In this document: positions 9,280 through 13,011 of the stretch, in pieces
Layout of the letters: every line of letters starts with the position of its first letter
Numbering within the stretch: the first letter of the stretch is position 1
IMG/VR virus record: IMGVR_UViG_3300005288_000009
Location: 1 to 41,591 of that record
Length of the DNA stretch: 41,591 nt
Strand: one strand, 5' to 3'
Origin: a virus
Notes under the pieces: generated by a model
What the model was told of the DNA's origin: nothing
The model's database searches: none
Seen by the model: the letters and a program-made list of their open reading frames with translations, nothing else
Made by a program: the position numbers and the translations under genes

Positions 9280-10191
9280 ATGGCTTTTACCCTCAACAAT
9301 ATCGCATCAGACAAAGAAAACACTGCTGCAAAACGTGGCGATTCGATTCGCGCACTGCACAGCAAAATCAAGATCGTCAACGGCTTCAATGAGCGCGATT
9401 TTCAGCGCGAAGACGTGCGACTTCATATTGCTTCAATCGTTGCCGCGCTGATTGCTGGCGAGCCAATCCCCGCGCTGGTCGTCTGGACGAATCCAGAAAC
9501 CGGCGACATCGAACTGGTTGACGGTGAGTGCCGATACTGGGCGTACAGCGATTTCGCTGGCGCATACCCGGATCGCTTCGATGGTTATGTGAGTGTTGTT
9601 CCGTTCCAGGGTACGCCAGCGCAACGCAAGGCCATGGTCGCCAAGAGCAACAGCCAGTTGCCACTTGATCCTGTCCAGCGTGGTCGCGTCTATGTTTCGC
9701 TGCGTGATGAACACGGCATGACTCGCCAGGATATCGCTGCCGAAATGGGCAAGTCATTGGCGCACGTCGATCAGATGATTCTGCTGGCCAGCGCAAAGCC
9801 GGAAGTTCTAGCAGCGGTCGACTCTGGATCGATCAGCGCAACCGAGGCCGTGAAGCTGACTCGCGAGCATGGTGATGACGCACCTGCCGAGCTGGAGCGC
9901 CGCCAGGAAGCCGCTAAAGATCTCGGCAAGGGAAAGGTTACAGCCAAGGTTGCGGCGCCCAAGAAGGCTGCTGCGCCGAGTCGCCCGAAGATTGACATGA
10001 TCGTTTCGGCTGCTGTTGTGCTTATCAATCGACTGGCTGCCGACGTCCTCCGCGATATTGATCGGCCAGAAGACACTGAAGTCCGCGTCAGCTCTCACGC
10101 GCTGGCCGACTTGCTCCAGGCCGTCAATGACATGCGCGAATCTGGCAAGGCGCCGGATGCTGATCGCCAGGTTGAATTGCTAATCGAGTGA
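9280..10191 (+). CDS. ParB/KorB-like nuclease-fold DNA-binding protein
   Basis: A 303-residue protein. Residues about 35-110 match the ParB/Srx N-terminal fold (INGFNERDFQRED-type start, then ELVDGECRYWAY where GERR is usual). Residues about 145-190 form the KorB/ParB HTH (MTRQDIAAEMGKSLAHVDQMILLA, read in parts, then SGSISATEAVKL). An Ala/Lys linker leads to a helical C-terminal part. No ParA partner is present, so partitioning is unlikely; such lone proteins in phages are usually transcription or replication factors. Strong SD (AGGAG) and its own promoter element. Confidence 0.85.
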   Translation: MAFTLNNIASDKENTAAKRGDSIRALHSKIKIVNGFNERDFQREDVRLHIASIVAALIAGEPIPALVVWTNPETGDIELVDGECRYWAYSDFAGAYPDRFDGYVSVVPFQGTPAQRKAMVAKSNSQLPLDPVQRGRVYVSLRDEHGMTRQDIAAEMGKSLAHVDQMILLASAKPEVLAAVDSGSISATEAVKLTREHGDDAPAELERRQEAAKDLGKGKVTAKVAAPKKAAAPSRPKIDMIVSAAVVLINRLAADVLRDIDRPEDTEVRVSSHALADLLQAVNDMRESGKAPDADRQVELLIE

Positions 10192-10198
10192 GGGCATA

Positions 10199-10348
10199 AT
10201 TGTTTTGCGCAGGCCGTGAGACGCCGAAGCAAAACAGGATCGACGGCTAACCAGAGCCTTTTGATGTTCGCTGTTCCTTGCAGGATTGACCGCCGTCGAT
10301 CCAAGTCCTGCCGGGAGTCTCACCAGCGAACAGTCAAAGGGCTTTTTT
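10199..10348 (+). ncRNA. Candidate pseudoknot-rich structured RNA ending in a terminator-like stem
   Basis: Five inverted-repeat pairs fit in 150 bases: TGTTTTGC/GCAAAACA (10201-10208 with 10229-10236); GTGAGAC/GTCTCAC (10216-10222 with 10317-10323); GGATCGACGGC/GCCGTCGATCC (10237-10247 with 10292-10302); an 18-bp stem with one bulge (10256-10273 with 10324-10342); GCAGGA/TCCTGC (10280-10285 with 10306-10311). Hairpins one, four and five nest, while pairs two and three cross them as long-range contacts. T6 follows the 18-bp stem. The element fills the gap between the ParB-like stop and the HNH gene. Exact complementarity is seen; RNA function is inferred. Confidence 0.6.
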
Positions 10349-10361
10349 GTGGGTTGAATTT

Positions 10362-10973
10362 ATGCGGGCGAAAAACAAACTGCTATTTGGAGTCGGTGTT
10401 AACGACGCCAGTTATGAGGTTTATTCTTTCGAGCGTCGAAACGGCAAGTATGCGATCGCATGGAGATGCCCTCTGTATTCAGCTTGGTGCGGCATGCTTG
10501 GTCGATGCTACAACGAGAGGGAGCTGCGCCGAGCGCCAACGTATCTTGAGTGCGCCGTATGCCCTGAATGGCTTAAATTTTCATCGTTTAGCTCATGGAT
10601 GGCAACGCAAGGTTACTCCGGAAAGCAGCTAGACAAAGACATTTTGCACCCGGGCAATAAGCTGTACGCGGCAGATAGGTGCGTATTTGTTACGCAGGAT
10701 CTGAACAAGTTTTTAACTGATGCCGGTGCCGCTCGTGGTGAATGGCCTATAGGCGTCTCGTGGAATCAGAGAGATAAAAGATTTCAGGCGGCATGCGGAA
10801 ATCCATTTACCGGCACCAGGGACAGGCTCGGGTATTTCCTTTCGCCGGAAGCCGCACACGAAGCTTGGCGAGAAAGAAAACACAAATATGCATGCGCATA
10901 CGCTGACATTCAGGATGACCCAAGAATTTCTGCCGCTCTCAGGATTCGCTACATAAAACCAAGGGAAGCATAA
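10362..10973 (+). CDS. AP2/HNH-type homing endonuclease
   Basis: A 203-residue protein from ATG 10362; the SD is poor. Residues about 35-125 carry the HNH-family pattern YSAWCGMLGRCYNERE, then CPEWLKFSSFSSWM, LDKDIL, GNKLYAADRCVFV and a final LN. Residues about 135-190 form an AP2-like DNA-binding domain (GVSWNQRDKRFQAAC, LGYFLSPEAAHEAWRERK). Free-standing endonucleases of this type spread between phages by cutting sites that lack them. It lies between the ParB-like gene and the helicase gene, directly after the structured element at 10199-10348, and its end supplies the SD of the helicase gene. Confidence 0.85.
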   Translation: MRAKNKLLFGVGVNDASYEVYSFERRNGKYAIAWRCPLYSAWCGMLGRCYNERELRRAPTYLECAVCPEWLKFSSFSSWMATQGYSGKQLDKDILHPGNKLYAADRCVFVTQDLNKFLTDAGAARGEWPIGVSWNQRDKRFQAACGNPFTGTRDRLGYFLSPEAAHEAWRERKHKYACAYADIQDDPRISAALRIRYIKPREA

Positions 10974-10974
10974 A

Positions 10975-13011
10975 ATGCCATTATTGGAACATCAGCTGCC
11001 AGTTGTGGCAGCAATGCAGAAGCACTTCAGGTCACGCGAGATGACTAAGTGGCATGATCGGGAGATTCACCCCCCGATAGTTTGTAATGCCTCCGTTTCG
11101 TCTGGCAAGTCCGTAATAATTGCGGCCCTGGCTCTTGCGGTTCGAAAAGCAGCGCTTGGAGCCGCAAGGCCGAGAAGTGTTTTTGTCCTTGTGATTCAAA
11201 GGCAAGGAGAATTGTGCATGCAGAACTCGGCGGCAGCCTGGGAATTCAACGACGAGTCGAAGCTGCTCAATAACTCGCTGTTCAGCGCCAGTTGCGGCAA
11301 GGTCAAGTCGACCTACTTTCAGGTTGTTTACGCCACCGAGGGCACTATTTCTCGCGCCCTGGGTTTCGGCGTAAAAGAAAAGGAAGGCGACGAACCAGAG
11401 CCGCGCAAGTGTCAATATCGTTTCTCGATGTACACCGCCGATGAAATGGCCAAGACTCCCGAGCAGCGCGCACTGATGAAGAAGTTTCACCCGGACCTGA
11501 TCATGTGGGATGAGGGCCACCAGATCCCATACGACAAGCCGGACAGCATGGCGGTCAAGATCCTTGAGCACTTCTACGACTGCAAACCAGGAATGCGCTT
11601 GGCGTGCTTCAGCGGGTCTTGCTTTCGAGGCATCGAGTCCATCGTCGGCGATACGCCTCAGCACCTGTGGAGGAAGTTCGCCAGCATCAAGCCGGATGAT
11701 CCTGATTATCCAGAAGGTGGCGTAGGCGACGGCATCATCACTACCGAATTCATGATCGAGCAAGGCTGGGTCGTGCCGCCGACGTTTGGCTATCCGGATG
11801 ACACGGATAAGCAATACGACTTCAGCCACCTAAACCCGAACGGCTGGGAATACGACGAAGCCGAGATGGACGCCATTGTCAGCGACCACCAAAAGCTGCT
11901 GGCGGTATGTTCCGACGTAATCGAGAAGGCAGCCAGCCGCAAGGGTGTCTTGATCTTCGCGGCAACCCAGCGGCACGCCAGGCAGATTGCTGCCGCCATG
12001 AAAGACCTTGGCGTTGATCCTGACACCATTGGCGTAATCACCGAGAAGACCAAGGACAAGGATCGTCGCCGGATTCTGGATCAGGCGAAAACCGGCGTCA
12101 TCAAGTACACGATCAACGTCGCCGTGCTGACTACGGGGGTCAATGTTCCCTGGTGGGACACGCTGGTATTCATGCGGCCAATCGGATCGCTGGTTCTGCT
12201 CATCCAAGCTATCGGTCGAGTGCTGCGCCTGCTGATCCTTGACGGCGAAGTCCCGATGTTCGAGCGCTCCAACTTGTTCGGCCTGACTGCGGCTGATCGC
12301 CTGGAGCTGATCGCGGCCAGCAGCAAGCCTGATGCTCTGGTAATGGATTACGCCGACGTCATGAACACGCTCGGGCATTTGTACGACAATCAGATCCTTG
12401 AACAAGCCGAGCTGGAGAAGGCGAAGAAGGAGAAGAAGGATCTGATCGAGTGTCCGAAGTGCATGGCCGACCTGGGCATTCAAACCATGAACAGTCCTTC
12501 GGCGCGCCGCTGCATCTATCGCGACAGCAAGGGCGAGCGCTGCGAACACTTCTGGCACTTCAGGTTGTGCCCTGGCTGCATGACGCAGAACGATCAGGTG
12601 GCTCGCGAGTGCCGGTCATGCCGCCGCATGCTAATAGATCCGAATGCCGTGCTGAACAATAAGAGTTATTCCGATGGCGAGTCGATTCCGGTCCGCTCGA
12701 TGAAGGCGGGCCACGGATCAGGCGGCAAACTCTGGTTCCGATACGAACTGTCGACCGGCGACACGCCGATGGAGATCTTCTATCCGCATGCCGGCGATAA
12801 CAAGAAGGTCAACAACATCATCTGGGGCAAGTTCGTTGATGCGCTGCCGATTGATCAGCGGTCTCGCTTGCGTCTTCGGGCCATGAAGGCTGAAACCGTG
12901 ATGGAAAATATTGAGCTGATCCCGGTTCCGGCTGAGTTGTCGGCGCGGAAGAAGGGGAGCCGCTGGACGATTGGGCGTCGGCGGTATGCGGAAGTGGAGG
13001 TGGCATTATGA
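10975..13011 (+). CDS. SF2 DEAD-like helicase with C-terminal zinc ribbons
   Basis: A 678-residue protein. Walker A ASVSSGKS with Lys45, Walker B DEGH at 179-182, and helicase C-terminal motifs around residues 330-420 (GVLIFAATQRHARQIAAAM, TTGVNVP, IQAIGRVLR). Residues about 490-550 carry paired Cys motifs (CPKC, CPGC, CRSC) that form zinc ribbons. It resembles phage replicative or recombination helicases of the UvsW/RecG-like DEAD group and probably unwinds forks or origin structures. ATG 10975 follows AGGGAAG. It is followed by an ATGA overlap with the C39-like gene. Confidence 0.9.
   Translation: MPLLEHQLPVVAAMQKHFRSREMTKWHDREIHPPIVCNASVSSGKSVIIAALALAVRKAALGAARPRSVFVLVIQRQGELCMQNSAAAWEFNDESKLLNNSLFSASCGKVKSTYFQVVYATEGTISRALGFGVKEKEGDEPEPRKCQYRFSMYTADEMAKTPEQRALMKKFHPDLIMWDEGHQIPYDKPDSMAVKILEHFYDCKPGMRLACFSGSCFRGIESIVGDTPQHLWRKFASIKPDDPDYPEGGVGDGIITTEFMIEQGWVVPPTFGYPDDTDKQYDFSHLNPNGWEYDEAEMDAIVSDHQKLLAVCSDVIEKAASRKGVLIFAATQRHARQIAAAMKDLGVDPDTIGVITEKTKDKDRRRILDQAKTGVIKYTINVAVLTTGVNVPWWDTLVFMRPIGSLVLLIQAIGRVLRLLILDGEVPMFERSNLFGLTAADRLELIAASSKPDALVMDYADVMNTLGHLYDNQILEQAELEKAKKEKKDLIECPKCMADLGIQTMNSPSARRCIYRDSKGERCEHFWHFRLCPGCMTQNDQVARECRSCRRMLIDPNAVLNNKSYSDGESIPVRSMKAGHGSGGKLWFRYELSTGDTPMEIFYPHAGDNKKVNNIIWGKFVDALPIDQRSRLRLRAMKAETVMENIELIPVPAELSARKKGSRWTIGRRRYAEVEVAL

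Follow-up and report, generated by a model that had tools for sequence, protein, structure and literature searches.

A proposed knotted leader RNA of phages appears to belong to an undescribed gene-control family and not to be the partner of its neighbouring DNA-cutting enzyme

Promoter-proximal conditional terminators are known from phage lambda, at pR'-tR' (6S RNA), and from other systems. Transcription-attenuating riboswitches place a conserved pseudoknotted RNA and an intrinsic terminator directly before a gene. In T4-type homing endonuclease leaders (I-TevI, segB, mobE), one account describes hairpins that hide the ribosome-binding site and limit expression (PMC2988022). Here we analyze a structured RNA element in a viral DNA stretch of 41,591 nucleotides (the window; IMG/VR record IMGVR_UViG_3300005288_000009) and compare it with relatives in other phages.

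The element lies on the plus strand at about 10207–10348, is approximately 142 nt long and ends in U6. Its pairings fill a 150-base gap between two genes on the same strand, a ParB-like gene (9280–10191) and an HNH-family gene of PHROG 953 (10362–10973), which starts 13 nt past the U-tract. All pairings proposed by an earlier sequence-only reading were found where it had placed them. The P1 hairpin (10207–10230) has the general form GC, GNA/GAA internal loop, GGC/GCC; in the window it is best read as GC, internal loop GCA/GAA and GGC/GCC, closed by the loop C-GTGAGAC. The outer pairs GTTTT/AAAAC that had been assigned to this hairpin are present, but they are not conserved and probably lie before the transcription start. 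The loop sequence GTGAGAC (10216–10222) is the 5' strand of pseudoknot PK1; its 3' strand, GTCTCAC (10317–10323), bulges out of the 3' arm of the long hairpin. Pseudoknot PK2 joins an 11-base linker strand (GGATCGACGGC, 10237–10247) to the apical loop of P4 (GCCGTCGATCC, 10292–10302). P4 (10280–10285/10306–10311) is enclosed by P3, a long terminator hairpin of 19 bp with one bulge (10255–10273 with 10324–10343) whose strands are about 50 nt apart; both were assigned from the fold, the alignment and the helix count. In P3, TGTTCGCTG (10265–10273) pairs with CAGCGAACA (10324–10332), and AGCCTTTTGA with TCAAAGGGCT (10255–10264/10334–10343). Also paired are TGTTTTGC with GCAAAACA and, as an inner pairing, GCAGGA with TCCTGC. 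The U-tract (10343–10348) is the predicted 3' end of a short RNA and is kept in the aligned relatives, of type 1 and type 2 alike (see below). Four of the helices in the element are perfect Watson-Crick duplexes no shorter than 7 bp and together comprise 35 bp; as many helices occurred in 5 of 2000 dinucleotide shuffles and as many paired bases in none of the 2000. The plain nested minimum-energy fold has a z-score of −3.7. No second convincing copy was found within the window by a de novo descriptor scan, for which shuffled sequence gives 8.4 chance matches per Mb at a PK2 of at least 7 nt.

Relatives were gathered through a search with the ParB-like protein, DNA comparison with phages (Orisa01–03), pattern scans of viral contigs, an HNH search, and covariance models of the window's type (R1) and of a second type (R2). 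Approximately 47 loci were found, some of them near-duplicates: about 29 of type 1, the window's type, and about 18 of type 2. These counts are lower bounds because the collections were searched by pattern and BLAST. Weak R1 matches on the opposite strand turned out to be the palindromic stem. Type 2 differs in sequence, with the P1 loop TTGGCGG and the partner CCGCCAA, yet its parts follow the same order. P1 comes first, then the linker strand and the long terminator stem; an inner hairpin, with a loop that is the pairing partner of the linker, is followed by the PK1 partner, the stem again and the U-tract. Type 2 has one small hairpin more. Three or four copies each are present in the phages G318, G320, G321 and G322; copies within one genome stand before different genes and differ from one another in PK1 sequence. 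Cultured carriers are the Pseudomonas phages Orisa01–03 and AH02, and the host assignment rests on these phages, not on the window itself. In AH02 (MZ501271.1, 22565–22693), the gene AH02_28 is annotated across the element and is probably no protein gene.

Compensatory changes are present in both pseudoknots and in the terminator stem. In an 11-row type-1 alignment, 94% of cells pair, and pairing falls to 29–44% when the partner is slid by one to three columns. Seventeen pairs are changed on both sides, compared with 7.5 in shuffles, none of 500 reaching 17; this control keeps the relatedness among rows, and the swap tests therefore weigh more. Pairing with the locus's own partner, as opposed to those of other loci, was 0.97 against 0.37 for type-2 PK2 and 0.97 against 0.34 for the upper part of type-1 P3, while PK1 occurs in twelve distinct variants, each fully complementary to its own partner (mean 0.56 to others), with none of 20,000 reassignments doing as well as the real partners; in these comparisons the strands were chosen by eye, which favours the own-partner score. 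The variants are GTGAGAC, GTGGAAC, GTGGAAA, GTGAGAA, GTCGAAA, GTCGTAA, GTAGTAG, CTGCAAG, TTGGCGG and TTGGTAT, together with two from HNH leaders of the same topology (L080 and L116). Within P1, the GC is invariant and all three pairs of P1b are changed on both sides. The element might be a plain terminator or insulator with incidental extra pairings, as its strong 19-bp hairpin with U6 would allow. We consider this improbable: the pseudoknots cross the hairpin and covary in many relatives, and a standard scan for short-loop terminators misses the element. The proposal of a pseudoknot-rich RNA exceeding a plain terminator is thus borne out by the conserved crossing pairs and their compensatory changes.

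A sigma70-like promoter, TTGAAT-17-CATAAT (10172–10200, plus strand), precedes the element, with a predicted +1 at about 10207. Its −35 box (10172–10177) is supplied by the last codons of the ParB-like gene. Among type-1 loci, five promoters unrelated in sequence place the predicted +1 within 0–2 nt of P1's invariant basal GC; the promoter match at L047 is weak. The element had been described as inserted after GTGA at a stop codon. The boundary is not that clean, because the block common to relatives begins within the final ParB-like codons. In the window, codons at 10165–10191 are part of this conserved promoter-bearing block, and relatives without the element have a different ParB-like C-terminus.

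The distance from the U-tract to the start codon is 11–15 nt in nearly all type-1 and type-2 loci examined, whichever gene comes next. The same spacing was seen in 2 of 139 other T-tract hairpins of these phages, a noisy control set. A strictly fixed spacing does not hold, as L152, L153 and L158 have 36 nt. P3 closes at the U-tract and the start region (10349–10361) is outside the conserved structure. A conserved GTGGG follows the U-tract; it also trails ordinary terminators in these phages and is therefore by itself no argument for a link to translation. At about 6000–6045 of L024 and at similar sites, ordinary terminators carry the GTGGG/ATTGGG...GAAAATG tail of the RNA elements. GTGGG was considered as a mimic of the P1 loop that would compete with it for the PK1 strand; the ATTGGG of AH02 and the presence of the tail at ordinary terminators led us to drop this idea. 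There is no room for a second promoter between the U-tract and the start codon, so expression from the element's promoter, for example of the recombinase gene at L150, would need read-through. In the window, the RNA is located between the ParB-like gene and a helicase gene (10975–13011, plus strand) that adjoin each other in L005, a relative without the element; an unconditional terminator placed between them would therefore be polar for upstream transcripts.

The loci thus have the layout of a conditional intrinsic-terminator leader: a promoter, a structured RNA, and a hairpin with a U-tract close before a gene. This packing of promoter, terminator and start codon, together with the polarity argument, favours a leader that acts in cis and whose termination is leaky or conditional. 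We put at about even chances the reading that the element is a cis-acting leader RNA of an undescribed family that would make transcription of the following gene conditional. Termination itself, its regulation and the role of the downstream gene as target are inferred. Transcription would start at the base of P1, and in the nascent RNA the P1 loop would dock onto the far arm of the long hairpin, and the linker onto that hairpin's apical loop. Both contacts may keep the 19-bp hairpin closed, despite strands some 50 nt apart, during synthesis of the U-tract, so that termination should depend on the folded, knotted core. Some polymerases would continue into the gene a few nucleotides downstream, and interference by a factor or ligand could let all of them do so. 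That copies sharing a genome have private PK1 sequences agrees with action within one molecule and is what cis elements would be expected to show. We identified no alternative antiterminator fold able to switch P3 off. The earlier suggestion of a riboregulator comes close to this reading.

The window and L008 share a 155-nt RNA stretch that is 100% identical, and their downstream ORFs are 51% identical (background) and the upstream gene stretch 65%. An RNA block conserved far beyond its surroundings counts against a cis leader and would also fit a trans-acting product. The main rival is an independent small RNA gene, consisting of a promoter, a knotted RNA of about 142 nt and a terminator, whose product would act in trans, for example by binding a host or phage protein; its proximity to genes would merely reflect compact genomes. 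The block from promoter to U-tract is self-contained, and the RNA is 99–100% identical between phages with differing flanking genes. However, a start codon is close by in nearly all loci, copies in the same genome differ in PK1, and the downstream genes would be left without an obvious promoter. We regard this rival as a serious minority possibility. The several copies per phage also bring to mind the put-like antitermination leaders of HK022, in which a knotted RNA would modify its own polymerase to ignore terminators, including its own. The structured RNA stands at the very start of several predicted transcripts in one phage, and some copies precede recombination genes, but a U-tract terminator is what the core is organized around, and we consider this reading unlikely.

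The element had also been compared with HEARO/IscB loci, as a possible mobile RNA-endonuclease unit in which it would be the guide or scaffold RNA of the HNH protein. An HNH-family gene is next in 12 of the first 13 type-1 loci, from PHROG 953, PHROG 99 (HNH_3/AP2) or PHROG 1035 (endonuclease VII-like), and the phages G001, G004 and W02 lack both RNA types as well as PHROG 953. A strict link failed, as L047, with an unrelated gene next, and twelve further loci (L150–L161) precede non-HNH genes. In total, 12 of the approximately 29 type-1 RNAs lie before an HNH-family gene and about 17 before others. At L150 and L159 the RNA is directly between the promoter and a gene for a RecE/YqaJ-type recombinase; seven loci of L150–L161 are followed by a PHROG 1376 protein (L161 as scanned representative) and three by a PHROG 6576 protein (L152 as scanned representative). 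Second copies in the same phages precede unknowns and a Rha-like gene. Type 2 is found before HNH genes (L007, L009, L011, L057 and L061), HTH_39 genes (L029–L034, with Pfam checked on L033) and others. Other HNH genes in RNA-bearing genomes have no such RNA. The window protein (203 aa) has no RuvC domain in Pfam or PHROG scans, in agreement with the earlier statement that an IscB-type RuvC is absent. With one RNA type common to three nuclease families, a predicted +1 that coincides with P1 at five promoters and would leave no apparent 5' guide segment of the OMEGA kind, and no match in Rfam, a guide or scaffold role is very improbable, and the mobile-unit proposal is not supported. The HNH link is secondary. 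The window protein itself (10362–10973) has no Pfam HNH match, the PHROG 953 'HNH' family (alignment A3) shows DKD...GNK where a typical HNH has histidine, and no solved structure matched the profile of the HNH protein.

Structured upstream regions (z below −3) were found at 12% of 73 related HNH loci and at 1.8% of 110 control starts (Mann-Whitney p = 0.004), a comparison that includes different pseudoknotted leaders. A structured leader is therefore commoner at these HNH genes than at control starts, yet not general. Upstream of the HNH start in L080 and L116 (about 1380–1500) is a leader with the element's topology and no U-tract; its PK1 pairs are GCAACGG/CTGTTGC and CGCAACA/TGTTGCG, and its last helix enters the likely ribosome-binding site (AGAGG), which suggests translational control. 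A third, smaller structured leader (GCGGATAGG..., with a loop pairing), recognized by eye, recurs after a TATAAT-like box before HNH genes in L050, L071, L093, L099, L115, L118, L121, L123 and L126; the six scanned had no Rfam match. In L066, L076 and L077, the region upstream of HNH has a further leader, whose loop contact covaries (TAGGAA/TTCCTA, TAGTGC/GCACTA).

A HEARO or group I intron identity, raised by the sequence-only reading, found no counterpart in Rfam 15: nothing reached the gathering score, and the sole hit was a chance-level match (E 4.5) to a family other than HEARO. No group I intron catalytic core was recognized, there being no Rfam match. A type III toxin-antitoxin (ToxIN) arrangement was not seen either; each locus has one RNA unit, with HNH-family or unrelated proteins next. 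In bacterial genomes, searched without a positive control, the type-1 pattern was absent and the type-2 pattern gave 11 matches resembling chance matches in protein-coding sequence. A search of 299 genomes from the genus of the L044 genome (Pseudomonas japonica), likewise without a positive control, yielded no type 1 and two weak type-2 matches beside tRNA-like sequence and plain terminators. The plasmids searched contained no element. No paper on such an RNA was found among the titles and abstracts returned by literature searches, or in the one paper searched for terms.

The loci therefore represent an RNA family without an Rfam entry that covaries strongly, is multi-copy in some phage genomes and has cultured representatives. 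Control of phage accessory, recombination and homing-endonuclease genes becomes directly testable, with natural variants already at hand in the independently varying pseudoknots. Should termination prove to be knot-dependent, the element would be an example of a terminator that requires tertiary folding. More tentatively, and with the odds against it, the family may represent a novel regulatory RNA class whose sensing core would be built into the terminator hairpin through two pseudoknots, and copies with private pairing codes would fold without cross-talk, each controlling its own gene.

Among known systems, HEARO and IscB omega RNAs resemble the element in that a structured RNA precedes an HNH-containing protein in a mobile context; the element differs in having no RuvC/IscB protein or apparent guide, in ending in a terminator, and in most loci being non-HNH. 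In T4-type leaders, too, a phage homing endonuclease gene is immediately preceded by an RNA structure (PMC2988022); the element, by contrast, terminates in a U-tract ahead of the start region and also heads other genes. Sequestration of a ribosome-binding site of the T4 kind was not found, as the conserved structure ends at the U-tract. Attenuating riboswitches share with the element a pseudoknotted RNA and a terminator before a gene; in the element, the core is inside the terminator hairpin rather than before it, and we identified no ligand or mutually exclusive antiterminator. The layout of lambda pR'-tR' is also alike, with a promoter, a short terminated leader and genes that need read-through. 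To our knowledge the element has no Q-like factor, unlike pR'-tR'. It differs further in that its terminator belongs to a covarying double pseudoknot and in that several unlinked copies are present per genome.
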